47,391 nt of DNA, from the NCBI GenBank assembly GCA_016931085.1, contig JAFGFO010000410.1, positions 1 through 47,391 on the forward strand, written 5' to 3'. The DNA comes from Thermoflexales bacterium. GTDB taxonomy: Bacteria; Chloroflexota; Anaerolineae; Fen-1058. A program made the translations under genes and the position numbers. Every line of letters starts with the position of its first letter. Position 1 is the stretch's first letter. This document shows positions 17,574-40,139 of this stretch, in pieces. The notes beneath the pieces are model-generated. The model did not search any database. It was not told the origin of the DNA and was given only the letters and a program-made list of their open reading frames with translations.

Positions 17574-18683
17574 TTACACATCCATCCTCAGTTGAGCTGC
17601 CATGGCACGCGCAGCCTCCCAATCCAGCTCGGACAAATTGCTGCGCGTGACCCGGCCTAGCTCCAATTGAGCCAGGCCCAAAAAGCCGGCATCAACTTTT
17701 TCTGGCTCAAAAGCGAGCAGCAAGAACAGTTGAGCCAGGTTCACACTGACGTGTTTCTCGTGCCTCAAACTGCGCCTCACGAGCACGTGCGCCAGACGGC
17801 GTAAAACGCGCCTGGGATTATTGCGGTAGTACCAGGTATACGCCGGCCAATCTCGAAACTTGCGCTGATACATCGCGCCCACAAAGCTCCACATGGTATC
17901 CAGGTACACACGGCGCACCTGGAACCAGCGCTCGACGACATCGTAACGAACATCCCGTGTGGGACGCAGTTTAAACTCGGTTGCCTCTCGAATCAAGGTC
18001 AGCCTATCCGTCCGATCGCCAAAGGCCGCCTCGAAGCGGCGGAGCCGCTCGGCGTAGCTAGGGTGGTACAAGCCATGCAGGATCAACAGCGCATCAGAAC
18101 AAGCCAGCAGAGCTTTGGAAAACTGGCAAGCCAAAAAGAAGCGCTCCTCCTCTGTCGCCGTTTGCGCCAGGAAACGCGTGGAAAATGGGCCCAGGAAGCA
18201 CCACAAGCGGACGTAAAATTGAATCTCTGCCTCGGCCAACGGCATTTTCTGGGCGACCATGTCTGGAATGAGCGCCAAGACACCTGGATCGCCATAAATC
18301 ACCCGGCCCGCGTACTTGAGATCATAGTGATACATCGTATAGGCCAGTTTTTTCCACCGGGCCGGGCTATATACGCTGATATCTACCCACGATATTCCGA
18401 GCTGTTGTGCCAACTCACGCCGGAGTTGGCCGAGAAAGTCCCGGTCGACCGGCCGCTGGTTGAGCATCACGAGGTCATAATCGTTAACGGGCGTGAGGTC
18501 TCCCTTTTCGCACAAGACAGACCCTTCGCCGCGCCCAAAACCACCCACCAGCACCAAGGCTTCCAGTTGGGGGAACGCCGCGAGCAGGCGCTCACGCAGC
18601 AAGGCCACGTCAGAGGCGATACGCACATCGACAGCCTGGTCATGATGGACGGTATAATGGGACGATTCTAGCTCACAGTTCAT
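17574..18683 (-). CDS. Pol-beta-type nucleotidyltransferase-fold protein
   Basis: This 369-residue protein of unknown substrate has a clear minimal nucleotidyltransferase site: GGFGRGEG at 47-54, then NDYDL with Asp68 and Asp70, and a third acid at Asp101 in WVDISVY. The remaining two thirds are helical, with many aromatic and basic residues, and could bind a lipid or glycan acceptor. It differs from the other nucleotidyltransferase (1949-3112) in motif and layout. ATG 18683 overlaps the preceding gene by 11 bases. It sits next to the phosphatase-superfamily gene, suggesting one enzyme adds and the other processes a phosphate-linked group; this pairing is inference. Confidence 0.72.
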   Translation of the reverse strand: MNCELESSHYTVHHDQAVDVRIASDVALLRERLLAAFPQLEALVLVGGFGRGEGSVLCEKGDLTPVNDYDLVMLNQRPVDRDFLGQLRRELAQQLGISWVDISVYSPARWKKLAYTMYHYDLKYAGRVIYGDPGVLALIPDMVAQKMPLAEAEIQFYVRLWCFLGPFSTRFLAQTATEEERFFLACQFSKALLACSDALLILHGLYHPSYAERLRRFEAAFGDRTDRLTLIREATEFKLRPTRDVRYDVVERWFQVRRVYLDTMWSFVGAMYQRKFRDWPAYTWYYRNNPRRVLRRLAHVLVRRSLRHEKHVSVNLAQLFLLLAFEPEKVDAGFLGLAQLELGRVTRSNLSELDWEAARAMAAQLRMDV

Positions 18684-20809: not shown

Positions 20810-22279
20810 CTACGCTTGCGGTTGCGCCAGGATACTGCGTCCCAAGTGAACCATTCGCCGCACCATCGTTACATCAAGGATATACAGCATTAAGCCGTAG
20901 CTGGCCACCCCTACGAGCGACAGAACGAGCAGTTCTACCCAATCCACAGAACCTGACAAGGGTCGTAACATGTATTGAGTGAACCCAACAACTACTGCCA
21001 TGCCTGCTGCGGCTAGAAACGGCACACGCAGGTAAGCAAATAGAGTTCTGTAATCAATATGCAGAAATTTGACCGCCAACAGCAGATGAAGCGGCATGCC
21101 AATCAGGACCACGACCAGCTTGGCATAACAGAAAACCACCAAATTTTGCTGTGCGCCCAGGACGTAAATAGGAATCGTGTACAACAGTTTCAATGCCTGG
21201 AATTTGGGCATAATATCGGCTCTGCCCACAGCTTTATAGACTTCAGGATTAGCCGCAACAACCCAAGACAAGCCCTGTTGAATAGCCAGAATGCTCAGGG
21301 GGACATCTAGTCCAATCCACTTGCCGCCGTAGATGAGTGAGGTGGCCGGGCGTGCGATCAGGGCAATGCCCACCCCGATGGGCAACGAAATGAGCGCACT
21401 GATACGCACCAGGTCCAGTAAACGATCACGCAGCTCAGGCATGTTGTGCTGGAGGCGGCTAAACGCAGGAAACGTTATAGAAGATACGGGGGCCAGGAGA
21501 GTGCCCAGTATCATGACCACCAGGTTATAACTGACGGTGTACAGGCCGAGGTCAGAGACGTCAAGATAATGTCCCACAATGGCGTTGTCGCCGTAGACGT
21601 AGAACCAGCCCATCAGCGCTTCCAATGCGCACAGAAATCCAAACACGAGCAACTGGCGTCCCAGGCCAAAATCGTATTGGAACTTGGGCCGCCAGGAGGT
21701 ACGCCACCACAACAAAGCCGTTTGCACGATTGAGGCCGCCAACGAACCCACGACCAGGGACCAGACCCCCCAACCTATATAGGCTAGAGGAATAGTCACG
21801 AACAAGGGGATCAAGTTAGGCAGCAAATCGACGACGAACAGCTTGTCAAACTCGATCCGGCGCACGAGGATGTTTCTGTGCACGGCCCCCAACGAGGCCA
21901 CAATCAGTTGGAACCCCAGAACACGCAGGACCGGGACAGCGCTCGGTTGATGAAAAAAGCCAGCTATCCAAGGGGCGCTGACCAAGAGCATCCCATACAG
22001 GACCAGGCCAAACACAAGATTCGACCAAAAGACGATGTTGAATACATGGTCTTCATTTTCGTCACTCTGGATCAAGGCCCTCGACATACCCATATCTCGC
22101 AGGATATCCAGCAAGGCAATCGTCGTGGAGGCGATAGCCACCAGTCCATAAACGGATGGGGCCAACAAGCGTGCCAAAATGACGGTTGTCAAAGGTCGAA
22201 GGAGCTTGGGAAAAGCGGTTTGCAAGTACACCCATTTCACTGCTCCGACGGATTTTTTGTTAACGTCGTCAAATGCCAT
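20810..22279 (-). CDS. Polysaccharide flippase, MOP superfamily (Wzx/WzxC-like)
   Basis: This 489-residue integral membrane protein has about 12-14 hydrophobic segments. It matches the polysaccharide transporter layout: an N-terminal KWVYLQTAFPKLLRPLTTVILARLL helix region, LAPSVYGLVAIA, the DLGLYTVSYNL segment at mid-protein and a PVSSITFPAFSRLQ loop. It would flip undecaprenyl-linked repeat units to the outer face of the membrane. ATG 22279 has AGGGG 4 bases before it; the codon at 22303 is an in-frame alternative that overlaps the preceding gene. It is the only flippase gene in the window. Confidence 0.93.
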   Translation of the reverse strand: MAFDDVNKKSVGAVKWVYLQTAFPKLLRPLTTVILARLLAPSVYGLVAIASTTIALLDILRDMGMSRALIQSDENEDHVFNIVFWSNLVFGLVLYGMLLVSAPWIAGFFHQPSAVPVLRVLGFQLIVASLGAVHRNILVRRIEFDKLFVVDLLPNLIPLFVTIPLAYIGWGVWSLVVGSLAASIVQTALLWWRTSWRPKFQYDFGLGRQLLVFGFLCALEALMGWFYVYGDNAIVGHYLDVSDLGLYTVSYNLVVMILGTLLAPVSSITFPAFSRLQHNMPELRDRLLDLVRISALISLPIGVGIALIARPATSLIYGGKWIGLDVPLSILAIQQGLSWVVAANPEVYKAVGRADIMPKFQALKLLYTIPIYVLGAQQNLVVFCYAKLVVVLIGMPLHLLLAVKFLHIDYRTLFAYLRVPFLAAAGMAVVVGFTQYMLRPLSGSVDWVELLVLSLVGVASYGLMLYILDVTMVRRMVHLGRSILAQPQA

Positions 22280-22299
22280 TTTTCCCCTACTCGCCTGGG

Positions 22300-25041
22300 T
22301 CAATGATCAACTGCAGCAGCCTTGAGCAACTTGGCGGCTTCTCTCACAGCGATCGTGCTGCGATCTTCTAACTCGGGCACAACACGTTCCAGTTGCTCCC
22401 GAATAGCCGCCCTGGTCTGGACAACACTTTGCACCTGAAGCCATACCTCCTCATAACACGCAAATTCCATATCGTGCTGGACAAAGCACTGCGGCAAGCC
22501 ACATAGATCAGCCAGCCCTTTGAGCTTGGTTTGCTGGTACACGCCACTCGCCAGGCCTACAAATGGAATCCGCATAGAGGCCGAAAACACAGTAAAATGA
22601 TAGCGTGCTCCAAGTGCCAGATCGAACAAGCCTATCAGGCCCTTTAACGTCGAATCATCATACTCTCCCTCTACACAGCGAGCGTGTTCCGGGTAAGCCA
22701 TGCCAGCCACAATCTCTCTATGTATCTCCCGATCATCTACACCCTGACAGTAATCCGTAGGGATAAAGAGAATTTTCGCATTAAATCCTCGCACAAGCCC
22801 GTCAGCGATCTGGGCCATCAGGCTTATTTCACGTTCAAGCCCAGGCTGGCGACCTTGACCCTTGAAAACCTTTAAAGAGCCTTTTAAATTCATGGCCACC
22901 GCCAGAGAGGTCTCCAGGTCGAGCCAGTCCTGTCCAGCTTCTGCAAGCAAAACACGCCCAGCTTCTCGAGCGGGTATACATGGGATGGTCATGGCATCGT
23001 CGGCTGCATCCAGCACTTCAGGCATGGACACACCAATGGCGCGCAGACGTTGGTGCGATGTATGCTTGTCGCGAAAGGTGATCATGTGAACGCGATCCAG
23101 GCATAAGCGCGCATACCAAGCGTCCAGCCGGTCGGTAAAGGGGCCAATCGTTTGACCTGACACAATAACCGTTTTGCCCAATATACGGGCCGCCAGGTAT
23201 TGCGTGCATTTTTTGTACAGCTCCTGCGGAATCACGCTATTGAGATTGCCTCCTCCGACGTTGAACAGCATATCCGCGCTGGCAATCTCGTCCAGTGCAA
23301 GCCGGGCGGAGGTCCACAATCTCAAGCGCAGGCCATAGCGTTCAGCCAACGCAGCCACCAGAAAGAGAAGCGTGGCTCCCAACGTGACAATCTTGGCCTT
23401 GAGATTTGAGCCTGGCCTCAGTCCCAGCGCTCTCACATCGTGGACAGCTCGCTCGCCATGAAAGGCAGCGGTGTAAGCCGGGTCGTGCGAAAGCATCACG
23501 ATCTCCACATCGTTCTCCAACAAGGTCTTCAAGTTCAGCCTGTCGGCGTGTGGCATCGCCTCGTCGCCAATGTCATGGGCACCAAAGCCACCGATCATGA
23601 CCACCTTGCAAGATCTCGATCGCTGCGGAGGCGGTCGCTTTTCAAGCGCAAACGCTTTCAGCATGCGTGCCAGCAAGCTGAACCCGCGTTGGAATTGGCG
23701 TCCGAGTTGCTTGAGCAGGTAGTCAAAGCTGATAATCTTGTCCAGGAGCCAAAAAGGAAGCGCATGCTCACCCATCAAAACATTGAGGGAAAACCTGAGC
23801 GTTCTGAGGAAATCCACCCGCCGAATGGGCAAATCGTGGGTATAAATGGGCACCTTTCGCCCCAATCGTCGCCACACGCTCAAGCGGATGCCTATATTCA
23901 TCTTTTTTGTCAAGCCCTGATCACGAACCACATCGTCAACCCCCATTGGAGCGGCCTGAATAAGCTCTGCTCCAAGCATTTGGCGGACAATCTGCTCGGC
24001 TGCATCGCTCCTCGTAATCACCGTAGCCGTCCCATGAGGTCTTCCCAACCCGCCTTGCCAATTATCGCCCACAGAAAAATCGGCCCACTCCGACAGCTTG
24101 TCGAAATAAAGCCACTCGCGTACCGGATAGAAAAAATAGGGGAAAGTATGTCCCCAATACGTCCAATCCAAATGATTGACAAAACGTTCTGTACCATCCT
24201 TCAAGACGAGTCGCAGCCGGCCGGGCACACCCTCTCCGCGATATTCAAGTTGTGCCAGATCTTCAGGTCTCACGCCCTGCTTGTAACATAGAAATTCGGT
24301 GGCACGGCGACTTGGGACGTGACTGGTAAACAAAGACAGCACATACGGGAGCCTGTTTCGCAAATCAGGGTACACTCTTTGCAGCAAACGCAGTCCGTGT
24401 ACGTGGGCCGGCAAGCCAACAAAGGCCAGACGACGATCGTGATCCTCACCACGAATGATGGGTTTGAGAACCTGATTCAAGGGCACGGGGCAATACTTGG
24501 ATTTCTGTGCTGCTATCAACTCGTCCCTGGTGTGTGCGATGTAGCTCAGTGCTTCCAGGGGTGCGGCGGGATTCATGCGGGTAACGATAGCGCCATCGAC
24601 CTCGCCTACCGAGAGAAGATGACAAAGTATTTGTGTCACCATCCCGCCTGAGGCGCCATTATCCCGAATAGCAACATCCAGCGAGCAAGCCCGCCAGATA
24701 CCCCGATGGGGACCGACTAAGGGATGACAGGGCAGTGCTTTCTGTGATTCTGGCCGTTCGTATAAATCCAACTCGAACCCGGGGCATACCATCACACACA
24801 ATTCGCACTGTGTGCACAGCGCGTCATCCACACATGGTTCATAAATCCCCTTGCCAGAATTGTAACGCACCTGAACAGCATCTGTCGGGCAAACAGCCTC
24901 GCAGGTAGCGCAACCCGTACAAAGCGAATTTTTGGCGACAAAGCCAATATGCTTGCCCACGTTAAAACCCACTTCAGCAGCGGACAGGCGTTGATAATGA
25001 CGCTGTATACGGAGATTCTGCCCAGTACGATCGTTATTCAC
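22300..25041 (-). CDS. Fusion: FrhB-like iron-sulfur protein plus polysaccharide pyruvyl transferase
   Basis: One frame of 913 residues carries two proteins usually encoded apart. Residues 41-51 and 76-86 are two ferredoxin-type 4Fe-4S motifs (CTGCATCEAVC and CTQCELCVMVC). Residues of about 110-400 are the FrhB domain of coenzyme F420 hydrogenase beta-subunit-like proteins, with SGGMVTQIL near 131 and ADFSVGDNW near 320. Residues of about 478-913 are a polysaccharide pyruvyl transferase (CsaB/WcaK type), with GGFGAHDIGDEAM, NVGGGNLNS, SGQTIGPF and GARYHFTVFSAS. The transferase puts ketal pyruvate on sugars from phosphoenolpyruvate; the role of the FrhB part is unknown. Two Cys usual in these FrhB domains are replaced: Ala212 in VGLPAHVHGLR and Thr239 in LSLFTSHVPS. 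GTG 25041 is the start, with only a weak ribosome site. Confidence 0.88.
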   Translation of the reverse strand: MNNDRTGQNLRIQRHYQRLSAAEVGFNVGKHIGFVAKNSLCTGCATCEAVCPTDAVQVRYNSGKGIYEPCVDDALCTQCELCVMVCPGFELDLYERPESQKALPCHPLVGPHRGIWRACSLDVAIRDNGASGGMVTQILCHLLSVGEVDGAIVTRMNPAAPLEALSYIAHTRDELIAAQKSKYCPVPLNQVLKPIIRGEDHDRRLAFVGLPAHVHGLRLLQRVYPDLRNRLPYVLSLFTSHVPSRRATEFLCYKQGVRPEDLAQLEYRGEGVPGRLRLVLKDGTERFVNHLDWTYWGHTFPYFFYPVREWLYFDKLSEWADFSVGDNWQGGLGRPHGTATVITRSDAAEQIVRQMLGAELIQAAPMGVDDVVRDQGLTKKMNIGIRLSVWRRLGRKVPIYTHDLPIRRVDFLRTLRFSLNVLMGEHALPFWLLDKIISFDYLLKQLGRQFQRGFSLLARMLKAFALEKRPPPQRSRSCKVVMIGGFGAHDIGDEAMPHADRLNLKTLLENDVEIVMLSHDPAYTAAFHGERAVHDVRALGLRPGSNLKAKIVTLGATLLFLVAALAERYGLRLRLWTSARLALDEIASADMLFNVGGGNLNSVIPQELYKKCTQYLAARILGKTVIVSGQTIGPFTDRLDAWYARLCLDRVHMITFRDKHTSHQRLRAIGVSMPEVLDAADDAMTIPCIPAREAGRVLLAEAGQDWLDLETSLAVAMNLKGSLKVFKGQGRQPGLEREISLMAQIADGLVRGFNAKILFIPTDYCQGVDDREIHREIVAGMAYPEHARCVEGEYDDSTLKGLIGLFDLALGARYHFTVFSASMRIPFVGLASGVYQQTKLKGLADLCGLPQCFVQHDMEFACYEEVWLQVQSVVQTRAAIREQLERVVPELEDRSTIAVREAAKLLKAAAVDH

Positions 25042-25062: not shown

Positions 25063-25848
25063 TCATGCGGCATTGCTGACGAACAGCACATTCCAGGTCG
25101 TATCGTTGGGGGACTGGGTCATGTCGCCAAAAGCGCGAATGTCCAACAAGCGCAAGTTCGCCTGGCTCATAAAGAGCGCCAGTTCCTGGGGGAAAAAGTA
25201 GCGCATCCAGTGAGCCTCTGCGCTTTCGTTGACGACCTGCTGGCCGGCGAGTCGCCAAACCAGGTAACGCACCTCGCACAGATGGCGATAGCTGTCCAGG
25301 ACGCCCGAGGCCACCCGGATCACCTTGCCGTCCTCGGTTGGGATAACCTTCACGCGCTCGCTGGGGCGGACGTTGAGCACGGCCGGCCCATACCAGACGT
25401 CGCCCACGAAGAGGCCGCCGGGGCGCAGGTGGCGGCGCACGGTGCCCAGCGCCGCCAACACGTCGTCATTCGTCGCCTGGTAACCCAGCACAGCAAACAT
25501 CATCAAGACTGCATCGAACTGCTGGTCCAGCTCAACTGTCCGCACATCGCCGGTCTGAAAGGTGGGCATGTGAGGCGTTTGAGGCGGCAAGTTGGCCTGC
25601 GCCTTGAGCCGGGCGTGAGCTAGCATCTCGGCCGAAAGATCGACCCCTGTGACCTGGTAACCGCGCCGGGCCAACGGCAGAGTGTGATTGCCGGTGCCAC
25701 AGCCCAGATCCAAGACGGAGTGCACAGGTGCGCTGGCGTACTGTTTAAACACTCCCTCCAGCATGTCACATTCTGCTTCATAATCCTTGTCGCCGTAGAG
25801 CAAATCGTACTGCTCGGCGTATCCCGCCCCAAAAACTGAATCGCTCAT
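25063..25848 (-). CDS. SAM-dependent methyltransferase, class I
   Basis: This 261-residue methyltransferase has motif I VLDLGCGTGNHT (46-57), the acidic residue Asp70 ending the next strand (VTGVD), the DVRTVEL segment and LRPGGLFVGDVWYGP near the middle. It belongs with the small-molecule or sugar methyltransferases. ATG 25848 has GGAGG 7 bases before it and overlaps the stop of the aminotransferase gene by four bases (ATGA). It probably methylates an O or N atom of a sugar nucleotide or glycan made by the neighbours. Confidence 0.88.
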   Translation of the reverse strand: MSDSVFGAGYAEQYDLLYGDKDYEAECDMLEGVFKQYASAPVHSVLDLGCGTGNHTLPLARRGYQVTGVDLSAEMLAHARLKAQANLPPQTPHMPTFQTGDVRTVELDQQFDAVLMMFAVLGYQATNDDVLAALGTVRRHLRPGGLFVGDVWYGPAVLNVRPSERVKVIPTEDGKVIRVASGVLDSYRHLCEVRYLVWRLAGQQVVNESAEAHWMRYFFPQELALFMSQANLRLLDIRAFGDMTQSPNDTTWNVLFVSNAA

Positions 25849-26978
25849 CCTAACACCTCCCTGACTGCATCACACACTTGATCCAACTGCGCTTCTGTCA
25901 ACGCCAAGCCGGAGGGTAAATACAGCCCCTGGCGGGCGATTCGCTCAGCCACCGGGTAGCGCTCGCCCCGGAACAGCCCTCGCTCTTGCAAGACCGGCTG
26001 TTCGTGCATACCCAGGAAAAATGGGCGCGTGTCAACGCCGCGCTCCTTGAGCCGCCTGGCAAACTCGACGGCATCCAGCCCATAGCTTTCATCCAACACC
26101 AGCCCGTACATCCAATACACCTGCCTGGCCCAAGACTCCTCTAGCGGCAACTGAAGGCCAGGGATACCCTGCAAGCGCTGGGTGTAGGCGTGCCCCATCC
26201 AGCGCTTGCGGGCCACGATGTCGTCTATCCGCTCCATCTGCGCCACTCCCAGGGCGGCCTGCAGATTCGTCAGGCGAAAGTTGTAACCCAGTTGAGTGTG
26301 ATAGAAGCGGCGCTGCGGCTGGAAACACAGATTGCGCAGCGAGCGCGCTCGCTCGGCATACGTGGCGTCGTTGGTCAACACCATGCCGCCCTCGCCCGTC
26401 GTGATCAACTTGTTGGCGTAAAAGCTGAACGTGCTGATATGCCCCAGCCCGCCGCAGCGTTTCCAGGCCGGGTGAGGCCCGGCGCGCCCGGAGAGGTATT
26501 CTGCTCCGTGGACTTCGGCCGCATCCTCGATGACCCTCAGTCCATGCTTTTCGGCCAGCGCCAGGAGCGGGTCCATGTCCACCGGGTGTCCGTAGATGTG
26601 AACGGGCATGATGGCGCGGGTGCGCGGCGTGAGCCTGGCTTCGACCTGGCTGACGTCCATGCACCAGGTGCGCGGCTCGGCGTCGACCAAGGCCGGCACG
26701 AGCCCGTTGGACACCAGCGCCAGGGCGCACGAGATGATGGTGAAGGTTGGCATGATCACCTCATCGCCCGGCTCCAGCTCCAAGCAGCCAATCGCAACCT
26801 GCAAGGCGGTCGTGCCGTTGCTGACGGCGACTCCATACTTCATGCCACAGTAAGCGGCCCATTTTTCTTCGAACTCGTGGATAAAGTGGCCGGCCGAGGA
26901 GACCCAGCCCGTGCGGACACACTCGGTCACGACCTCCAGCTCTCGTTCGCCCAGCCGTGGTTCATTTACCGGGATCAT
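25845..26978 (-). CDS. DegT/DnrJ/EryC1/StrS aminotransferase (perosamine-synthase-like)
   Basis: This 377-residue PLP enzyme has VSNGTTALQVAIG for phosphate binding, VIEDAAEVHGAEY for the pyridine nitrogen and Lys190 in FYANKLITTGEGG. The [15 protein letters not shown] start and the HIYGHPVDMD segment are closest to GDP-perosamine-synthase-type enzymes, but the substrate is not fixed by this. The start overlaps the cupin gene stop by one base (TAATG) and has AAGGAG 8 bases upstream. Together with the cupin, epimerase and methyltransferase genes it forms an amino-sugar module apart from the bacillosamine-like one. Confidence 0.92.
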   Translation of the reverse strand: MIPVNEPRLGERELEVVTECVRTGWVSSAGHFIHEFEEKWAAYCGMKYGVAVSNGTTALQVAIGCLELEPGDEVIMPTFTIISCALALVSNGLVPALVDAEPRTWCMDVSQVEARLTPRTRAIMPVHIYGHPVDMDPLLALAEKHGLRVIEDAAEVHGAEYLSGRAGPHPAWKRCGGLGHISTFSFYANKLITTGEGGMVLTNDATYAERARSLRNLCFQPQRRFYHTQLGYNFRLTNLQAALGVAQMERIDDIVARKRWMGHAYTQRLQGIPGLQLPLEESWARQVYWMYGLVLDESYGLDAVEFARRLKERGVDTRPFFLGMHEQPVLQERGLFRGERYPVAERIARQGLYLPSGLALTEAQLDQVCDAVREVLG

Positions 26979-27388
26979 TAAAAGCGCTCCTTCTCATCTA
27001 CCCCCGTGTAAGGGCCTTGCTTGATCTCTAAAAAGACCGTGTCTTCCAGCATGCGAAAGCCGTGCCCGCCGCTGACCATGAGCATCACGTCGCCAGGGCC
27101 AAGCTCGCGGCTGGCCACAAGCTCGCGTTCGTCGTTATAGATGTCGATTTCGCAGCGCCCGCGGCGAATAACCAGCACCTCCGAAGTGCCCACCAGGTGG
27201 CGCTCCAGGGGGAGGTGGACGTGGCGGACGATTTCGCCGTCCTTCGGGTAGACGACAAAACCCACCTGCTGCTTGAATTCGGGCGGCGTCACAAAAGTTG
27301 TTTTGGCCGGCAGAAAGTCGGCTCGAATGATATAGGCCAACAGTTGATCGCGCCAATAAATCCGTTCGATCAATTCCTGGTCACTCAC
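26978..27388 (-). CDS. Cupin-fold protein of amino-sugar clusters
   Basis: This 136-residue protein reads as a single beta-barrel cupin: [23 protein letters not shown] gives the first cupin motif with its His residues, and [17 protein letters not shown] gives the second. The tail [16 protein letters not shown] is characteristic of small cupins found next to sugar aminotransferases and epimerases. It may isomerise or epimerise a keto-sugar, or bind metal; the reaction is not known to me. GTG 27388 overlaps the preceding stop (GTGA) and has AGGAGG 7 bases before it. Confidence 0.8.
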
Positions 27389-28512
27389 GGGTGTCCCTCC
27401 TGTGTGTCCCATTTCACAAGCGCATCCACAATCCGCTGCGCCGCGTGGCCATCGCCATACGGGTTCACGGCTTGTGCCATTTCAGCATACTCGGCCGGAT
27501 CGTCCAGCAGCCGCCGCGTCCAGTTCACAATACGGGCACGATCAGTCCCGACGACGCGGACTGTCCCGGCGTCGACCGCCTCCGGTCGCTCGGTCAGCTC
27601 GCGCAGCACCAAGACCGGCTTGCCCAGCCCCGGCGCCTCTTCCTGGATGCCGCCCGAGTCTGTCAGCACCAGGGTCGCACGCTTCATCAGGTAGACCAAC
27701 GGCAAATAATCCAACGGATCGACCAGCATGATGCCAGGCACTCCTCCCAATACGCGATAGACCGGCCCTTGCACGTTCGGGTTGAGGTGTACGGGGTAGA
27801 CAACGTGAACGTCGCCGGCGTAAGCCTGCACGACCTCCTGCAGGGCCAGGCAAATCTGTTCGAGGGGGCGGCCGAAATTCTCACTTCGGTGAGCCGTGAC
27901 CAAGATCAGGCGCTTGTCCCAAGGCACAGCCGCGAGCGGGCCCGAGGCTGGGTCATACGGCAAATTGGCGACGGCCTGCAAAGCGTCGATGACGGGATTG
28001 CCGGTCACGAGAATCATCTCGTCAGGCACACCTTCGCGCAGCAAATTCTGCCTGGCACGTTGGGTGGGCGCAAAATGCAGGTCGGCCACCACGCCGGCCA
28101 CTCGGCGGTTGATTTCCTCGGGAAAAGGCTGGTACTTGTCGTAGGTACGCAAGCCAGCTTCCACGTGTCCCACCTTGGAACCGGCGTAGAAAGCGGCCAG
28201 CGCGGCGGCGACGACAGTGCTAGTATCGCCCTGGGCCAACACCCAGTCGGGCTTTTCAGCCTGCAAGATCGGTTCCAGCTTGCTCAGCACCGCCGCCACC
28301 ACCTGGGTAGGCGACTGGCTATCTTGCATGACGTTCAGGTCATACGCCGGCGCGATGCCAAACAAGGTCAGGACCTGGTCGAGCATCTGCCGGTGCTGCG
28401 CGCTCACGCACACACGGCTGACAATACGGTCAGGGTGTTTTTCGAGCAGATTGACCACCGGCGCCATCTTGACCGCCTCGGGCCGCGTGCCAAAAACTGA
28501 AAGGACTTTCAA
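27385..28512 (-). CDS. wecB: UDP-N-acetylglucosamine 2-epimerase, non-hydrolysing
   Basis: This 375-residue enzyme interconverts UDP-GlcNAc and UDP-ManNAc. It has [13 protein letters not shown] at the N-terminus, the catalytic residues Asp96 (GDTSTV), Glu118 (VEAGLRT), Glu132 (FPEEINR) and His208 (TAHRSENFG), and the [10 protein letters not shown] donor site. TTG 28512 is the likely start, since AGGAG lies 7 bases before it. No UDP-ManNAc dehydrogenase (WecC) is in the window, so ManNAc may be used as such or passed to the following aminotransferase and cupin genes. Confidence 0.94.
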
Positions 28513-28548: not shown

Positions 28549-31266
28549 TCATACTCCGTGGGCCTTGTCCAGGTAAGGCAGGCCGGTCTCTTCGGTCACG
28601 ATCCAATTCCAGGCGCGATTCCACCACGCGCCTGGCTCGCCTCCCAGCCGGCGAGTGATCTGCCCGGCCCACAGATACTCGATGCTCCAGGCGGCCAGCA
28701 AGCCCAACAACAATCCACTGAAGCCGCCCAGGGCCACACCAATCAGCGGCGAAAAAACACGCTGGACAGGCAGCACGGCCGGGGCGGCAAAACGCACCTC
28801 GCTGCCGGTCACGGAGCCGGCGATGTCCGTCTCGGACTGTTTGCGCGCCATGGTCAGATAGGTTTCCGAGGCCAGGTCACGCGCCTGGATCAGGCCATGC
28901 TCAGTCGCCTGCTGCCGCTCCAATTCAGCCCGCATCTGGTTGATCTCGCCCTGCAATTGCTCGATGGCCTGGTGGAGAGGTTCAGCCGCCGCCGAATAGG
29001 CCGGCAAGGATTCCAGCTCATCTAAGCGCAGCATCTCGCCAATCCCTTGGAGTCCAGACGCCGCCGCCGCGCTGTCGGCAAAGGTGGACTCGCTCAGTTG
29101 CGCCAGGCCCCCCACCTCAAACAGGTGCGGGTACTGCTCTTGAATCGTCACCAGGAGTGGCGTCGTAGGCGAGAGCACCAAAGACGTCTCTCCAAGCGCC
29201 CCCAGGCCGAACAACTCGTCATACCTGGTCATGATAGCCTGGCCCAACGTGCCATCCTCAGACGCCGTATCCACCGCCGTGGTCAGCGCCCCCAGGCCGA
29301 ACAACTCGTCGTATTTGGTCAGGATAGCCGCCTGCAGTTGGGTGCTGGCCGTACCGCTCAAGGCGCCAGCCTGGGCCAGCGCACCCACGCCAAATAGCTC
29401 CGCGTACCTGGCAAGGATGGCCTGGGTCAAGTCACTGCCTTCCGAGGCCCGGTCGGGAGCCTGGGCCAGCGTCCCCACCCCAAACAACTCGTCGTACCTG
29501 GCCTGGATAGCCGTCTGCAGTTCGCTGTCCACCGTATTGCTCAGCGTAGCGGCTGCACGAGCTAACTCGTCCACCTCAAACAATGCGGCATACTTTTGCT
29601 GCGTGGCCGTGTAGAGTGGATCACCTTCGGCTCGTTCAGCGTTCAGCAGCTCGTAGCCCTGGTTGTCAAACAGATGTTTGGACAGCCGGTCAATAGCAGC
29701 CTCTGACTCGGCCAGGCGGTTCTCCAACGTCCCCACCAAGGCCTGCAAATCGGCCAATTGGCTCGCGCTGTCCGTCTTCACGCCATCCACTCCGCTCAAT
29801 TGTAACTGCAGTTGGCCCGGCAAATCCGCCGAAGACGCGTACGCCTCGGCCTTGAGCAACAGGACCGCCAGGCTGTTGGTGGGCACGCCGGCTTCGCCGG
29901 CCTGGCGCGCCTGGCGCTGCAAAGCTCTCGCGTCGGCCAACAAGCGCTCGGTCTTGAGCTTGGTCGCGTAAGCGTCCGCCAGGCTCTGCAAGCGGGACTG
30001 CACCTGCTGGTCAAAAACGGCCAACTTGGCCCGTTTGTCGGCATCGGCATACGCCTGGAAGATGTCACGCTTGGCCTCCTGTTCCTTGGCCAGCGCGGCC
30101 ACGCGATTATCCAACTCGGCCGTCACGTACTGGGTAAATAAGCGGCTGCGCGCCTGGCGGTCCGCATCGACCGCCGCCAGGCGGCTGTTGGTTTCCGCTT
30201 CGACATAGGCCTCGAACAAGCGGAGACGGGCCTGCCGGTCTCGCTCAAAAGCCAGCGAGTTGTTTTCAAGCTCGGCCTCGGCGTACTGGGTGAACAAGCT
30301 GGTGCGGGCCTGCCGGTCCTGGTCAAAGGCCAGCAGCCGGGCCTCGATTTCGGCGTCGACGTACTGGGCAAACTGCTTGACGCGCGCTTCCCGGTCCTTG
30401 CGAAAAGCCATCAAGCGGGCATCCGTCTCGGCATCGATCAACTCGGCGATCATTGCCCGGCGAGCCTCTTGCTCCTTGTTAAAAGCCAACAAGCGATTTT
30501 TGGCCTGGGAGGTGGAATAAGCGTCGACGATGGCCTGGCGGATTCCTATTTCCTCGTCGACGATGCTGGTGATGGTTGTTTGCTTGGCCCTTTGGAGGGA
30601 ATCGATGATGTGCTGTTTGTCTGAGATCGTGCGAGCGAGCCTGTCCAATTGGCTCCGCTCGACAAATGTCTCCACAGCGGTCTGCGCCTGTTCATACTTG
30701 TACCGCGCCTGTTCCAGCTCTGTCTGGATCGACTTGGCGTACTGTTCTGGCGCGCCCCCGCCATAGAGGCCATTCACGTGGCGCTCGTAGGCCCGCGCCC
30801 AAGCGTTCGCGAGGGCCGCGGCATGCCCCGGATCGGGGTCCGTCACGTGGATATGGATCAGATCGCTGTCCTTCACCAGCCCGGCGCTCACTTTTTGGAG
30901 CAAGAGCGCTGGAGTACGTTCGCTAGGGCGCAGCATATCCCCCATTTCCTCAATCACCTGGTACGCGACGGAACCGTTTTCCACCAGGCCTGCCAGCGCT
31001 TGGCGGCGTGCCTCGGCCCCCATCGCCTGCGCGTAGCCTGAACCCAGTGTGTCCTCCGAGGTGGTTTTGAAGCGAGAGTCAAACTCGATGGAAGTTTTTA
31101 TCTTGACAATTGCGACACCGGCTACAGCCCGGTAAGGCGAGGGGAAAGCCAAGGCCAACACAGCCGCCACAAGGGTCATACCAAGCGTCAAGGAAGCGAC
31201 CAGCCGCCAGCGCCGCAGCAGGGCATCGATAACCTGGCGTACATCCAAGCCCAGCTCGTTTTCCAT
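28549..31266 (-). CDS. Wzz/chain-length-determinant-like protein with expanded coiled coil (905 aa)
   Basis: This inner-membrane protein has two membrane segments: one near residues 25-48 (LVASLTLGMTLVAAVLALAF) and one near 845-870 (GVALGGFSGLLLGLLAAW). After the first segment comes a Wzz-type domain (about 50-200), then a long extracytoplasmic coiled coil with seven full 26-residue repeats plus a partial eighth, and a second repeat block of six units of about 31 residues containing YDELFGxGxL. Such proteins set glycan chain length. No Walker A kinase domain follows. ATG 31266 is preceded by GGAGAGG and aligns with the start of its paralogue at 33406. It is far longer than usual Wzz proteins (about 330 aa). 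Confidence 0.85.
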   Translation of the reverse strand: MENELGLDVRQVIDALLRRWRLVASLTLGMTLVAAVLALAFPSPYRAVAGVAIVKIKTSIEFDSRFKTTSEDTLGSGYAQAMGAEARRQALAGLVENGSVAYQVIEEMGDMLRPSERTPALLLQKVSAGLVKDSDLIHIHVTDPDPGHAAALANAWARAYERHVNGLYGGGAPEQYAKSIQTELEQARYKYEQAQTAVETFVERSQLDRLARTISDKQHIIDSLQRAKQTTITSIVDEEIGIRQAIVDAYSTSQAKNRLLAFNKEQEARRAMIAELIDAETDARLMAFRKDREARVKQFAQYVDAEIEARLLAFDQDRQARTSLFTQYAEAELENNSLAFERDRQARLRLFEAYVEAETNSRLAAVDADRQARSRLFTQYVTAELDNRVAALAKEQEAKRDIFQAYADADKRAKLAVFDQQVQSRLQSLADAYATKLKTERLLADARALQRQARQAGEAGVPTNSLAVLLLKAEAYASSADLPGQLQLQLSGVDGVKTDSASQLADLQALVGTLENRLAESEAAIDRLSKHLFDNQGYELLNAERAEGDPLYTATQQKYAALFEVDELARAAATLSNTVDSELQTAIQARYDELFGVGTLAQAPDRASEGSDLTQAILARYAELFGVGALAQAGALSGTASTQLQAAILTKYDELFGLGALTTAVDTASEDGTLGQAIMTRYDELFGLGALGETSLVLSPTTPLLVTIQEQYPHLFEVGGLAQLSESTFADSAAAASGLQGIGEMLRLDELESLPAYSAAAEPLHQAIEQLQGEINQMRAELERQQATEHGLIQARDLASETYLTMARKQSETDIAGSVTGSEVRFAAPAVLPVQRVFSPLIGVALGGFSGLLLGLLAAWSIEYLWAGQITRRLGGEPGAWWNRAWNWIVTEETGLPYLDKAHGV
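29095..29610 (-). repeat. Six repeats of about 31 codons inside the longer Wzz-like gene
   Basis: The protein segment repeats the pattern [AT]I-x-x-[RK]Y-[DA]ELFG[VL]G[AT]L six times, with linkers rich in Ser, Thr and Ala. The paralogue has only two such units. The DNA copies are similar enough (CGCCCCCAGGCCGAACAACTC occurs in near-identical form) to suggest recent expansion by slippage or recombination. Confidence 0.75.
29950..30530 (-). repeat. Seven-and-a-half 26-codon repeats encoding the coiled coil
   Basis: Each 78-base unit encodes 26 residues of the form FxxYxxAExxxRLxAFxxDRxARxxL. Seven full copies and a partial eighth follow one another without linkers. The neighbouring paralogue gene has three full copies and a partial fourth. 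Units differ enough to be individually recognisable but keep the hydrophobic spacing, so they should form one long helical arm. Confidence 0.8.
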
Positions 31267-31309
31267 ACGCCCTCTCCTTTTCATACTTCCAGGCTGCAGG
31301 GTTCAAGTT

Positions 31310-33406
31310 TCATGTTTCTTCCGACTCAGCCGGCTCTCGTCCCGTCTGTTCGGCACGACGGCGTTCTCTCCCCCCTACCGGCAAGCCAGGGCCTGAAGCC
31401 AATAGCCAACTGGGAATTCGATTCCAAAAGGCATTCGGGTTGCCCCAGCCAACCTGCAATCCTGTTGACCCAGCCAGGTAGTCAATGCCAAACACGAGAA
31501 GGACACCCAGCAGAGCGCCCAACAGCGCGGCGGTGGCCACCCCCATGGCCCGCGAAGCAAGGCGGGTGGTAGGCGTGACGGCTGGAGCGGCAAAGCGCAC
31601 TTCACTGCCGGTCACGCTGGTCGCGATACTGACCTCGGAGCGCTTGCGCGCCAGGGTCGTGTAAGTGTCCCATGCCAGGTCACGCTCCTGGGTCAGTCTC
31701 TTTCGAGTCGCCTTCTGCTGCTCCATCTCGGCCTCCATCTGCCGGATTTCCTGGTGCAGTGTGCCGCTTGCCTCGCCCAGCGACTCGGTGGCGGCCGCAT
31801 AGGCCGGGAGGGATTCCGCAGACACGAGTTGTGCCAACTCTTTGGCCCTCTGGTCGGCAGCCAGCGCCAGGGGGTTGTCGGAGGGCACAACCTGCGCTAG
31901 TTGGGTGAGTTGGCCAAGGGTAAACAGCTTGGGGTAGAGCTGCTCGATCTCGGCAAACAAGGGCGTGCCGCCGGCGGTCTGCTGCGCGGCCTGGGACAAG
32001 CCGCCAATCTCGAACAACTTTTCATAGTAGGCCTCGATGCGGGCCGGCAGGGAATCCGTGGCAGCCATCGTAACAGTCAAGGGTGTCGTCACATCCTGCA
32101 GGAAATCATAGCCCGTGCCGGTCGACAACGCTTCAGACAAGCGGCGAATGTCGCCATCCAGGTCCTGGCGGCGTTGCCCCAGCGCGGTGATCAAGCTGTC
32201 CAGGTCAACCAGTTGCTGGGCGGCCGTGCTGGTGGGCTGGCCATCCAATTGCACTTGCAGATTGGCCGGCAAATCATCCGAGGAGGAAAAAGCTTGCGAC
32301 TTGAGCAAAAGCATGGCCAGTGTGTTGCTGCTGGCCACCGCGTCGCCACCCTGAATCAGTTGCGCTCGCATCGCCCCAGCATCTGCCAACAGGTGCTCGA
32401 TGCGCAGCCGGGCAGCGTAATAATCAGACAAACGCTGGGTCTTGTCCAACGCCTGTTGGTCCACGACAGCCAGCGTCCCGCTAATCTCAGCCTGGACGTA
32501 GCTGGCAAACAGCTCGGCGCGCGCGTCCCGGTCACGGTTAAAGGCGGCCAGGCGGCTGTTGACTTCACTATCGATATAGGCCGACAAAATTTTACGCTTG
32601 GCCTCCTGTTCCTTCTGGAAGGCTAACAAGATATTGGCAGCCTGGGCATCCATATATTTGGTCACGATCTGGGTGCTAGCGTTTATCTCCTGGGTAACCA
32701 CAGTCGAGAGAGCCAATTGCTTGCCGGCCTGCAGGATATCGAGAACCTGGCTTTTCCCCTCGATAGATCGTTGCAGCTCATCAACCTTGCTCTGGGCGAT
32801 GAAGGTTTCCAAGGCGGTTTGTTTCTGGTCATATTCTTGCTGAGCCTGTTCCCATTCGGCCTGGATCGACGAAGACTGATCGAGCGGCACGCCGCTGTAG
32901 AGATTGTTGACAAAGCGTTCGTAGGCCCGCGCCCAGGCGTTGGCGATAAGCGCGGCCTTCTCCGGGTCGGCATCAGTCACCTCGATCTGAATCAAATCAC
33001 CTTTCTGCAGCGTCTGAGCGTTCACTTTGCGCATGAGGTTAGCCGGTTTGCGCTCTCCGATCGACAGTTGATCACCCAACTCCCGGATCACCTGATTGGC
33101 AATGGCGCCGTTCTGCACCAGGCCCACCAAGGCGCTGCGCCGCGCATCATCCCCTCCCATCGCCCGCGCGTACCCGGCTGAGCTGAGCAAATCTTCCGAG
33201 ACGGTTTTAAAGCGCGCGTCAAACTCGACATCTGTCTTGACCTTGATGAGGGCAACACCAGCCACGGCTTTGTAGCCCGGTGGGAAGGCCAATCCATACA
33301 ATCCGGCCGCGCCGGCCGCGATCAGAGCCGCCAGGACAATGATCTTCCAACGCCGCACCAGGGCATCCACATACTGCCACACGTCAATTCCTAGTTCGTG
33401 TTCCAT
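31310..33406 (-). CDS. Wzz/chain-length-determinant-like protein (698 aa), first gene of the operon
   Basis: This is a paralogue of the 905-residue protein encoded next, with the same start (MEHELGIDVWQ against MENELGLDVRQ), an N-terminal membrane segment near 22-45, a Wzz-type region with FDARFKTVSEDLL, a coiled coil with three full and one partial 26-residue repeats, two YxxLFxxGxL units and a C-terminal membrane segment (about 640-662). The tail after it is about 40 residues, basic then acidic, with no kinase domain. ATG 33406 lies about 40 bases after the predicted transcription start. As first gene it would be made in step with the entire pathway. Confidence 0.85.
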   Translation of the reverse strand: MEHELGIDVWQYVDALVRRWKIIVLAALIAAGAAGLYGLAFPPGYKAVAGVALIKVKTDVEFDARFKTVSEDLLSSAGYARAMGGDDARRSALVGLVQNGAIANQVIRELGDQLSIGERKPANLMRKVNAQTLQKGDLIQIEVTDADPEKAALIANAWARAYERFVNNLYSGVPLDQSSSIQAEWEQAQQEYDQKQTALETFIAQSKVDELQRSIEGKSQVLDILQAGKQLALSTVVTQEINASTQIVTKYMDAQAANILLAFQKEQEAKRKILSAYIDSEVNSRLAAFNRDRDARAELFASYVQAEISGTLAVVDQQALDKTQRLSDYYAARLRIEHLLADAGAMRAQLIQGGDAVASSNTLAMLLLKSQAFSSSDDLPANLQVQLDGQPTSTAAQQLVDLDSLITALGQRRQDLDGDIRRLSEALSTGTGYDFLQDVTTPLTVTMAATDSLPARIEAYYEKLFEIGGLSQAAQQTAGGTPLFAEIEQLYPKLFTLGQLTQLAQVVPSDNPLALAADQRAKELAQLVSAESLPAYAAATESLGEASGTLHQEIRQMEAEMEQQKATRKRLTQERDLAWDTYTTLARKRSEVSIATSVTGSEVRFAAPAVTPTTRLASRAMGVATAALLGALLGVLLVFGIDYLAGSTGLQVGWGNPNAFWNRIPSWLLASGPGLPVGGRERRRAEQTGREPAESEET

Positions 33407-37361: not shown

Positions 37362-40139
37362 CTACATCTCGCGCAGTACCACGGGCAAATAGATGTGCGT
37401 CCCAAGAACGATACGATGCGTATCGCTGACACAGCCAGCCACATTCATCGCCGTGACAGTTATGGCCCACTCACCCCACCCAGCCCAGCTAAAAGCGACC
37501 GTGTCGGTCGTGCCGCCCATCGTGTGCACCACGGGACCGGCCTGCCCACTCGCCTCCCAGGTATAAGTGAGCGGCATAAAGGCCGTGCCCAGGGTTGAGG
37601 TGACGCTGGCGCTAAAGGGGTAGACGGTGTCAAGCTCGCCAGTGCTCGGACCGGTGATGAGCACCTGCGTCGGTGAGACAGGCACGCGAACGAGGATGGC
37701 GTGCGCGTCCGTCAGCACGCCGCCGGCATAGGCGGCCGTGATGGCAACGGTCTTGAGGCCGGGTGCGTTCCATGTGTAGCTTGCAAGGCCGGTGCCCTGC
37801 CCGCTGTCCGGCTCAGGCGTCCAGCTATACGTGAGAGGAGCAGTCGCCGTGATGGGGCTGACATCTGCCACGAAAGTGTAGGGCGTGTCGACGTAACCCA
37901 AGTCGGGGCCGGTGATCGTTACATCGCCTGGCGCAGAGAAAATCACGCGGGCGTATTTGAGGTCTTTGCCGGTATAGTCGTAATAGCTGATGTGCGGAAG
38001 GTCTACGCTATCTAGCGCCAGCGAGCTGTACTCACCTACCCGCCCGGCGCTATCGACGGTCTGAACGAGCCAGGCGAGCCCATCCCAGCGGGCGTATTTG
38101 AGATCATCTCGCGTGTCGTTGTAATAGCTCATGTGCGCCCTACCCGCGCCATCCAGCGCCAGGGAGTTATACTTGCCCACATCCCCCGTGCTGTCGACGG
38201 TCTCGACAAGCCAGGTGAGACCGTCCCAGCGGGCGTATTTGAGGTCGCCGTTGGTCCCGTCATAATAGCTGATGTGTGCCCATCCTGCGCCGTCCAACGC
38301 CAGGGAGCTAGACGCGCTCTGCCCGTCGACGCGATCGACGATCTGAACGAGCCAGGCGGAGCCGTCCCAACGCGCGTATTTGAGGTCGCCGCTGACGCCG
38401 TCGAAATAGCTGATGTGTGGAAAGCCCGCGCCATCCAGCGCCAGCGAGCTAGAATCGCCCGCACGCCCGGCGCCGTCGACGATCTGGGTGATCCAGGCAT
38501 GGCCGTCCCAACGCGCGTATCTGAGATAAAAGTCGATCCAGGTGTAGCTGATGTGCGGATAGCCGGCCGCATCCAAGGCCAGGGAGGTCGATTTGCCTAC
38601 ATCGCCAGTGCTTTCTACGGTCTGCGTGAGCCAGGCAAGACCATCCCAACGCGCGTACTTGAGATCGTGCACCTCGTCGCCCCTTCGATCGCCGTAGCTG
38701 ATGTGGGCAAGCCCCGCGCCGTCCACCGCCAGGGAGCCATATTGCCCCACGTCGGAGGCGCTATCCACGGTCTGAACGAGCCAGGCATGGCCGTCCCGCC
38801 GGGCGTATTTGAGGTCAGCCTGGATGCTGTCGTAATAGCCCACGTGGGGCAGCCCCGCGCCGTCCAGCGCCAGCGAGCTATAGCGGCCCACGTCCTCGGC
38901 GCGGTCGACGGTCTCGAGGCGCCAGGCGAGACCGTCCCAGCGCGCGTATTTGAGCTCGTAAAAGATCGAGTCGATCCAGTCGCAGTAGCTGACGTGCGGC
39001 TGGCCCGCGCCGTCCAGCGCCAGGGAAGTGAACCAACCCACATCCTCGGCATCGTCGACGGTCTGAAGGCGCCAGGCGAGACCGTCCCAGCGCGCGTACT
39101 TGAGGTCATTGTTCGTGTCGTCGTAATAGCTGATGTGCGCCAGGCCTGCGCCGTCCAACGCCAGGGAGCTGTCCTCACCCACATAGCCAGCGCTGTCGAC
39201 AGTCTCAAGGCGCCAGGCGCCGCCGTCCCAACGCGCGTATTTGAGGTCGCCGTTGGTCAAGTCGCTGTAGCTGACGTGCGGTCGACCCGCGCCGTCCAAC
39301 GCCAGGGAGGTATCCCAACCCACAAAGCCATCGCTGTCGACGGTCTCAAGGCGCCAGGCGCCGCCGTCCCAGCCGGCGTACTTGAGGTCACTGTTGGTCC
39401 CGTCGTAATAGCTGATATGTGGGAAGCCGGCATTGTCCAGAGCCAGGGAAGTAAACCAACCCACATCCTCGGCGCTGTCGACGGTCTCGAGGCGCCAGGC
39501 GAGACCATCCCAGCGGGCGTATTTGAGGTCGCCGTCGACGCCATCGTAATAGCTGATGTGCGGCCTACCTGCGCCGTCTAGCGCCAGCGAGCTATCCATG
39601 CCCACATCCTCGGCGTCGTCGACGGTCTCGAGGCGCCAGGCGATGCCGTCCCAGCGGGCGTATTTGAGGTCACCGTTGGTCCAGTCGTAATAACTGATAT
39701 GTGGGAGGCCTTCACTATCCAGCGCCAGCGAGCTATACTCGCCCACCCGCTCGGCGCCATCGACGAGCTCTGAATGCCAGCGCGTGCCATCGTGCCAGGC
39801 GTAATACAGGTGGCGCCTGCCGTAGGCGATGTGGGGGCGGCCATCCGCATCCAGGCGCAGGCTGCGCTCGTCCAGGTTGTCAAAGTTGTGGGGGCAGTCT
39901 GCGCACTGGATCTCCCACGGCCACGCCAACGCCGATTGGCGCGCCGTCGTGACCGGCTGCATTCCCCGTTCTTCTCTCTCGAGGCCTGCCCGGCCTGCCA
40001 TCTCCAGCCGCAAGCGGCCCGGCACGTCCTCACTTGTGGGAAAGGGAGTCAGCGCCGTCAGCGCTTCCGGGGCCGGGGCGCCGGCCAGCAGCGCCAGGGC
40101 GGCGCACGCAGAAATGACGCGGAACAGATTCGTTTTCAT
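37362..40139 (-). CDS. Secreted repeat protein with 47-residue repeats and PKD-like domains (925 aa)
   Basis: A signal peptide is evident (MKTNLFRVISACAALALLAG). From about residue 92 to 730 the protein repeats a 47-residue unit with core SSLALDGAGxPHISYYD and LKYARWDGxAWxxETVD: one degenerate, twelve full and one shortened unit. The pattern suggests one or two beta-propellers. Two Ig/PKD-like domains (about 740-905) follow, each starting with ITGP. The C-terminus is HIYLPVVLREM, like that of the next protein. ATG 40139 has GGGAGAGG upstream and lies 12 bases from the preceding stop. No catalytic site is seen; it is probably a surface or released binding protein. Confidence 0.85.
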   Translation of the reverse strand: MKTNLFRVISACAALALLAGAPAPEALTALTPFPTSEDVPGRLRLEMAGRAGLEREERGMQPVTTARQSALAWPWEIQCADCPHNFDNLDERSLRLDADGRPHIAYGRRHLYYAWHDGTRWHSELVDGAERVGEYSSLALDSEGLPHISYYDWTNGDLKYARWDGIAWRLETVDDAEDVGMDSSLALDGAGRPHISYYDGVDGDLKYARWDGLAWRLETVDSAEDVGWFTSLALDNAGFPHISYYDGTNSDLKYAGWDGGAWRLETVDSDGFVGWDTSLALDGAGRPHVSYSDLTNGDLKYARWDGGAWRLETVDSAGYVGEDSSLALDGAGLAHISYYDDTNNDLKYARWDGLAWRLQTVDDAEDVGWFTSLALDGAGQPHVSYCDWIDSIFYELKYARWDGLAWRLETVDRAEDVGRYSSLALDGAGLPHVGYYDSIQADLKYARRDGHAWLVQTVDSASDVGQYGSLAVDGAGLAHISYGDRRGDEVHDLKYARWDGLAWLTQTVESTGDVGKSTSLALDAAGYPHISYTWIDFYLRYARWDGHAWITQIVDGAGRAGDSSSLALDGAGFPHISYFDGVSGDLKYARWDGSAWLVQIVDRVDGQSASSSLALDGAGWAHISYYDGTNGDLKYARWDGLTWLVETVDSTGDVGKYNSLALDGAGRAHMSYYNDTRDDLKYARWDGLAWLVQTVDSAGRVGEYSSLALDSVDLPHISYYDYTGKDLKYARVIFSAPGDVTITGPDLGYVDTPYTFVADVSPITATAPLTYSWTPEPDSGQGTGLASYTWNAPGLKTVAITAAYAGGVLTDAHAILVRVPVSPTQVLITGPSTGELDTVYPFSASVTSTLGTAFMPLTYTWEASGQAGPVVHTMGGTTDTVAFSWAGWGEWAITVTAMNVAGCVSDTHRIVLGTHIYLPVVLREM
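37950..39866 (-). repeat. About 14 tandem 141-base repeats within the secreted protein gene
   Basis: The unit is about 141 bases. Several neighbouring copies are nearly identical at DNA level, for example GAGGCGCCAGGC with the following CCGTCCCA stretch, which occurs in most units. This points to recent expansion. The copies are coding and in one frame; they are not a CRISPR array. Units 6, 8 and 9 differ in length by a few codons. Confidence 0.85.

Follow-up and report, generated by a model that had tools for sequence, protein, structure and literature searches.

The plant 7-hydroxymethyl chlorophyll a reductase (HCAR) is a ferredoxin-fed reductase of the FrhB type that carries [4Fe-4S] clusters together with flavin adenine dinucleotide (FAD), acts on a chlorophyll substrate and has no transferase domain. 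BciB answers to the same description (PMC13297055). In FrhB of the F420-reducing hydrogenase, four cysteines surround a [4Fe-4S] cluster, and density read as the flavin ring lies about 8 Å from it (PMC3591093). The F420-dependent sulfite reductase Fsr joins ferredoxin, FrhB-type and catalytic domains in a single fusion protein in which cluster 1, with the motif PCX40CX54CX2C, takes electrons from the FAD and passes them to two ferredoxin clusters (PMC10229431), and the ACDS zeta subunit and FwdI of an ethane-oxidising archaeon likewise place an N-terminal dicluster ferredoxin ahead of an FrhB-type domain, with three [4Fe-4S] clusters and FAD in each (PMC11493965). The ketal-forming polysaccharide pyruvyl transferases (PSPTs) CsaB, WcfO and Pvg1p share family PF04230 and are described without a flavin domain in a review of pyruvylation; the donor of CsaB is phosphoenolpyruvate (PEP) (PMC6801904). 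Here we describe a gene in a 47,391-nucleotide stretch of DNA from a Thermoflexales bacterium (contig JAFGFO010000410.1; this whole stretch is called the window below) that joins a dicluster ferredoxin, an FrhB-type flavoprotein and a PSPT, in that order, in one 913-residue polypeptide. Judged from its replaced ligands, the flavoprotein half belongs to a clade that has almost certainly lost the core [4Fe-4S] cluster. Split FrhB-PSPT pairs in polysaccharide loci consist of the same two proteins, adjoining and often overlapping, but encoded by two genes.

The three Pfam families that the original prediction proposed to search for were all found above their gathering scores: PF04422 (FrhB_FdhB_N) at residues 116-193 (E 7.1e-20, 71.4 against 22 bits), PF04432 (FrhB_FdhB_C) at 203-365 (1e-18, 68.1 against 23.3 bits) and PF04230 (PS_pyruv_trans) at 504-831 (8.8e-20, 72.2 against 25.3 bits), as was the ferredoxin match given in Table 1. 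A protein search in which 7991 candidates were scored returned 70 further fused homologues of 769-938 residues, with 38-74% identity and a query coverage of 81-99% or more; each is listed with PF04230 and PF04432, and its match spans the junction. Since 70 proteins read through the same junction, the fusion does not stem from a frameshift, the event that the original prediction had named as its undoing, and an origin in sequencing or assembly error, in favour of which nothing was found, is virtually ruled out. Sequence comparison thus shows that the architecture is real, as had been claimed for a single polypeptide whose strand was not given. The cut-offs of the more specific models were not reached, neither for frhB (TIGR03289, 50.3 vs 331.5 bits) nor for CsaB (TIGR03609, 82.6 vs 213.1 bits) or WcaK (NF007452, 22.7 vs 399 bits), and a profile search with the PSPT half among solved structures gave no meaningful match. 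The best sequence matches of the window protein in the PDB were 8rja_E and 8riu_B, which we take to be structures from the ACDS zeta/FwdI paper. Fusions were rarer among assembled species genomes: with one genome per species and two short patterns from alignment A1, six relatives were confirmed, comprising the fusions L001, L002, L003 and a cut-off L005, a split pair of adjoining FrhB and PSPT genes in L004 (Victivallales), and, in L006, a lone PSPT next to a nitroreductase. In the phylum-level group around G002 (301 genomes) only the centre genome held the fusion; the genome draws here and below are phylum-level groups around centres reached by the A1 scan, not a random sample.

The window protein shares the FrhB fold, as judged by Pfam and sequence, and the flavin-contacting Lys-Tyr with FrhB and Fsr, and its two CxxCxxCxxxC ferredoxin motifs are complete (Cys 41, 44, 47, 51 and 76, 79, 82, 86), as originally predicted. 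It differs from FrhB and Fsr, where the core cluster ligands are intact, in lacking all four of them and in having a pyruvyl transferase as partner; set against the ACDS zeta subunit and FwdI, it is the ligands of the middle cluster that are gone. When aligned to FrhB of Methanothermobacter marburgensis (PDB 3zfs), Cys104, Cys134, Cys192 and Cys195 stand opposite Ala212, Thr239, Glu309 and Tyr312. The original prediction had correctly placed Ala212 and Thr239 at two conserved cysteine positions and proposed the loss of a third cluster or a redox site; one cluster does appear to have been lost while the ferredoxin cysteines were kept, but what is gone is four ligands of one cluster, not two cysteines. 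Nor is the loss peculiar to the window. Among the 71 fused proteins, the query included, 32 have all four core cysteines and 39 have none, with zero intermediates; the eight ferredoxin cysteines are complete in 60 of the 71, nine being short at the N-terminus and two having one replacement each. The picture in the 88 split FrhB-half homologues is different, with all four cysteines in 81, a partial set in three (P0105, which has three of them, and P0083 and P0140, whose sequences are truncated or misaligned at these positions) and none in four. By eye, three of these last four (P0078, P0080, P0081) lose alignment in or after positions 309-328 and look broken, and P0072 looks whole. That most split homologues also lack the core cysteines, the second finding that the original prediction had named as its undoing, is accordingly ruled out. 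Because its four cysteine ligands are replaced, we do not class the window protein as a functional iron-sulphur flavoprotein of the FrhB/FdhB type.

A simplification of the opposite kind was seen in the split FrhB proteins of L075 and of the plasmid loci L081 and L083-L088 (Parabacteroides, Paracoccus, Ensifer, Dinoroseobacter, Alloyangia, Sinorhizobium): the core-cluster cysteines are kept, but of the eight ferredoxin positions just four have cysteine, which suffices for a single cluster.

A tree was computed from the FrhB parts of 158 proteins, with nine columns at or beside the trait positions removed and P0159 omitted for its short length. In it the cluster-less rows fall into a single group of 43 (Shimodaira-Hasegawa-like approximate likelihood ratio test, SH-aLRT, 99) nested in cluster-bearing fused and split proteins, which amounts to one trait change; our trees are quick ones with SH-aLRT support only and some long, unsure branches. 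As read from this tree, the core cluster was lost once at the origin of the main cluster-less clade. Independently of this, the split FrhB of locus L144, known from one genome and accompanied by a PSPT fragment where the contig starts, has lost three of the four ligands. Twelve positions (175, 236, 239, 241, 298, 309, 312, 313, 317, 319, 374 and 416) switch between the 39 cluster-less and 32 cluster-bearing fused proteins, in that one residue occupies at least 85% of the former and another at least 60% of the latter, and all lie in the FrhB part and the linker, with none within the ferredoxin or PSPT domain. No corresponding switch is seen in the transferase half, so the product is probably unchanged and electron entry alone has changed. 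His215, Thr239, His241 and an acid at 309 are invariant in the cluster-less clade. His215 also occurs in 38 and His241 in 30 of the 81 cluster-bearing split proteins, with both present in 16, so the two histidines may predate the cluster loss, and the idea that a two-His-one-Glu site is wholly new to the cluster-less clade is weakened.

The FrhB half probably binds FAD. The Ser-Gly-Gly at the helix start of the FAD site (S131, G132, G133) is present in 38 of the 39 cluster-less rows, with one gap, and Lys182-Tyr183 (Table 1) matches the FAD-adjacent loop of FrhB (PMC3591093); these flavin motifs are as conserved in cluster-less rows as in cluster-bearing relatives. Right behind the Lys-Tyr pair lies Cys184 (window 24490-24492), a candidate catalytic residue found in 37/39 cluster-less, 27/32 cluster-bearing fused and 71/81 cluster-bearing split rows.

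Pairing of the two halves reaches well beyond the window. In the phylum-level group around G003 (148 genomes), PF04432 lies within 1.5 kb of 10 of the 36 PF04230 matches and within 4 kb of 12, always on the same strand, where random placement in genomes of an assumed 3.5 Mb would give about 0.04; one of the ten close pairs is that of the centre genome, picked for holding the fusion. On plasmids, 107 records match the FrhB query, and of seven regions inspected six are annotated, five with an overlapping PSPT gene and one with none, the seventh having no annotation in a PLSDB gene table that is incomplete. On plasmid pDSHI04 of Dinoroseobacter shibae, for example, FrhB gene DSHI_RS20755 overlaps PSPT gene DSHI_RS20760. 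Fusions outside the window clade occur in L051, L125 and, in reverse order, L064 (252-3008), where the PSPT (residues 56-372) precedes the FrhB part (561-804); in a 68-row tree both L064 and L051 have long branches. The Parabacteroides pair, used as a distant-DNA query, found no match in E. coli genomes. By these comparisons the pairing and fusion of FrhB and PSPT are recurrent, and because fusions and adjoining or overlapping gene pairs recur, the two activities very probably act together, as originally proposed; we place high confidence in this functional coupling.

The flavin partner is not always FrhB. Profile A3 of the PSPT (E <= 1e-30) gave 28 matches in 938 genomes from four phylum-level groups, 24 of them outside the four centres included. 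By custom profiles, FrhB is present as fusion, neighbour or near neighbour in 8 of these 24, a nitroreductase in one (L071) and an adjoining PF12831-type FAD oxidoreductase in nine, three of them Pfam-checked and two (L056 and L057) with equal scores, so that they may be near copies. A nitroreductase also stands beside the centre PSPT of L006. In P0229 a PSPT is fused to a nitroreductase, and this PSPT matches that of the window at E 5e-46. That a PEP-dependent transferase is paired with two unrelated flavoprotein families suggests that the transferase product is then reduced. The PF12831 oxidoreductases were set aside as a third equivalent partner, since their neighbours in the checked loci (CoA transferase, Memo, xylose-isomerase-like and universal stress proteins) are not polysaccharide genes. 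They nevertheless form a conserved pair with PSPT, in settings that, so far as the neighbours were checked, are not evidently polysaccharide loci, the oxidoreductase of 470-480 residues lying directly beside it (L056 7242-8666, L065 7050-8468, L059 6633-8063, also L055, L057 and L066-L069). A further PSPT protein, of 674 residues (L072 5824-7848, minus strand), has about 260 residues before the transferase domain, with no Pfam family in this part at E 1e-4.

From these observations and by analogy we infer a reaction, a product and an electron donor for the fused protein, and tentatively favour a two-step glycan-modifying enzyme that forms a 1-carboxyethyl (lactyl) ether reductively. The PSPT half would take a three-carbon unit, enolpyruvyl or pyruvyl, from PEP and attach it to a sugar, and the FrhB half, holding FAD, would reduce this unit before ketal closure, giving the lactyl ether much as MurA and MurB do, though with proteins unrelated to them. 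MurB performs the flavin reduction to the lactyl ether. MurA catalyses enolpyruvyl transfer from PEP (PMC6801904), and the likeness extends to the proposed logic only, the two being separate proteins of unrelated families. In most relatives, electrons would pass from ferredoxin through the core [4Fe-4S] cluster to FAD. In the window clade the former cluster pocket would be refilled by the fixed Thr239, His241 and Glu/Asp309, with His215, Ser317 and Trp319 near, and electrons would enter either as hydride that a soluble donor delivers directly to FAD or by way of a moved ferredoxin domain. The original prediction held that the domain kept its electron input; in relatives with a solved or modelled structure, electrons pass between ferredoxin and flavin by way of the cluster that is lost here, so that the known route appears to be cut in the cluster-less clade though its first part looks intact. 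Electron transfer is usually limited to about 14 Å. In an AlphaFold3 model of BciB, 7.9 Å separate the iron-sulphur centres and a further 7.0 Å lead to the flavin (PMC13297055). Adding these distances suggests a gap of about 15 Å or more without the nearer cluster, which is near or beyond the limit, and therefore the donor or its docking probably differ in the cluster-less clade. A bolder version, in which a lactyl-ether synthase of independent origin from MurA/MurB has exchanged its relay cluster for a putative single-metal or proton-donor site of His215, His241 and Glu/Asp309, with the flavin fed by another donor, strikes us as distinctly unlikely.

Capsules of Klebsiella K22, K37 and K66 carry lactyl ethers. 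The Klebsiella types K8, K22, K37 and K66 have a pyruvyltransferase gene without pyruvate, and a survey of 79 Klebsiella capsular polysaccharide (cps) loci counts nitroreductase genes twice and a coenzyme F420 hydrogenase gene once (PMC4616057), a pattern that fits reduction of the transferase product. We guess that both nitroreductase genes belong to the K22 and K37 loci, which closely resemble each other. A paper on Shigella boydii type 17 reportedly, by its title, concerns two genes for glucolactilic acid. Lactic acid ethers on bacterial glycans other than muramic acid are described for Rhodococcus equi capsules (PMC12786566). In muramic acid, the lactyl group gives NMR signals near 1.4 and 4.4 ppm (PMC9912281). 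Among the matches listed from open-licence PubMed Central, none described a flavoprotein that acts together with a pyruvyl transferase, and no paper there brings together 'polysaccharide pyruvyl transferase' and 'coenzyme F420 hydrogenase'. The review of pyruvylation uses neither 'reductase' nor 'F420' in its main text (PMC6801904).

Several points weigh against the reductive, lactyl ether-forming role. A product or activity is known for no member. The known relay is lost in the cluster-less clade, which argues against an ordinary ferredoxin-fed reductase. In the group around G003, 26 of the 36 PSPTs have no FrhB inside 1.5 kb, and a PSPT is near just 9 of the 114 PF04432 matches, so most FrhB genes there do something else. 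Six of the 24 non-centre PSPTs have none of the flavin partners sought (FrhB, PF12831-type or nitroreductase), and the sole plasmid match of the L006 nitroreductase has no annotated PSPT nearby. The text of the Klebsiella survey does not assign the nitroreductase or F420-like genes to capsule types (PMC4616057).

Gene pairing alone is silent on which group is reduced, and the FrhB half could act on the sugar itself, by reduction or deoxygenation, with the PSPT then adding an ordinary pyruvate ketal and the fusion channelling one acceptor. HCAR, the FrhB-family plant enzyme, turns CH2OH into CH3. Reductases of this family do take diverse substrates, BciB reducing a vinyl group (PMC13297055) and Fsr oxidising F420H2 for sulfite reduction (PMC10229431). 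The same PSPT subfamily pairs with nitroreductases, however, which is easier to understand if the shared substrate is the PSPT product, and we consider the sugar-directed role conceivable but fairly unlikely. With the relay cluster gone and the ferredoxin cysteines and flavin motifs kept, electrons may reach the ferredoxin and not the flavin, as would suit a ferredoxin-FrhB part that serves the window clade as a redox or oxygen sensor, or as a scaffold, switching the PSPT half on and off. Such a role is unlikely in our judgement, given that at least ten FrhB-core positions have been re-fixed with no drift and that the flavin motifs are conserved equally in cluster-bearing relatives. Simple decay of the flavoprotein beside an ordinary ketal pyruvyl transferase would agree with PF04230 being the family of ketal pyruvyl transferases (PMC6801904), but would not be expected to leave Thr239, His215, His241 and an acid at 309 in 39 of 39 proteins, and is very improbable.

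The minus strand of the window holds a polysaccharide gene cluster with glycosyltransferases, a flippase, an O-antigen-ligase-like protein, two DegT-type aminotransferases, WecB and an RmlD-like protein, among which the fused open reading frame (ORF) and that of the flippase share 4 bases (Table 1). The window protein is the only cluster-less member seen in its own locus, as the protein search matches carry no genomic context. The cluster-bearing fusion of L003, a metagenome-assembled genome of a Deltaproteobacterium, lies in a locus with a flippase, glycosyltransferases and relatives of the 144-residue protein and the aminotransferase.

Table 1. Features of the fused gene and its neighbours, in window coordinates; 'clade' refers to the 39 cluster-less fused proteins.
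Feature	Position	Strand	Basis
Fused gene, 913 residues, GTG start	22300..25041 with stop; 22303-25041 coding	minus	ORF list, Pfam, homologues
Ferredoxin-like domain, residues 36-91	24769..24936	minus	Fer4_7 at 41-87, 8.8e-08
FrhB-type flavoprotein domain, about residues 109-400	23842..24717	minus	PF04422, PF04432; FrhB 3zfs_C aligns 109-381
Polysaccharide pyruvyl transferase domain, about residues 476-913	22303..23616	minus	PF04230; relatives without FrhB exist
Lys182-Tyr183, counterpart of FrhB Lys75-Tyr76 loop near FAD	24493..24498	minus	Lys 35/39, Tyr 39/39
Ala212, in place of FrhB ligand Cys104	24406..24408	minus	Alignment
His215	24397..24399	minus	Alignment; 39/39 in clade
Thr239, in place of FrhB ligand Cys134	24325..24327	minus	Alignment; 39/39 in clade
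His241	24319..24321	minus	Alignment; 39/39 in clade, Arg 32/32 in cluster-bearing fused rows
Glu309, in place of FrhB ligand Cys192	24115..24117	minus	Alignment; Glu 37/39, Asp 2/39
Tyr312, in place of FrhB ligand Cys195	24106..24108	minus	Alignment; Tyr 36/39
Flippase, next gene	20810..22303	minus	PF13440 4.4e-85; relatives adjoin fusion in L001, L003
S-adenosylmethionine methyltransferase, preceding gene	25063..25848	minus	PF13649 6.9e-23
DegT-type aminotransferase	25845..26978	minus	TIGR04181 3.6e-95, under its cut-off; 55% identical relative in L003
144-residue protein, no Pfam match	26978..27412	minus	42% identical relative in L003

Elsewhere in the window, two long minus-strand proteins of 911 and 698 residues (28549-31284 and 31310-33406) look chain-length-regulator-like by eye, with repeated coiled-coil-like stretches, and the former has no Pfam match at E 0.001. 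A 369-residue cluster ORF (17574-18683, minus strand) has neither a Pfam nor an NCBIfam match at E 1. A tandem array of about 12 copies of a 141-base unit (37977-39746) lies within a 925-residue ORF with a weak BNR_4 match.

In summary, the FrhB-PSPT pair occurs in several phyla and has been fused more than once, with FrhB or a nitroreductase in the same place, and a recurrent pair with an interchangeable flavin partner opens the question of its function to direct tests. That a relay cluster has been lost all-or-none within one enzyme family offers a natural experiment in the rewiring of an iron-sulphur flavoenzyme, and the fused protein suggests an unstudied route by which an acidic sugar decoration is made and reduced.

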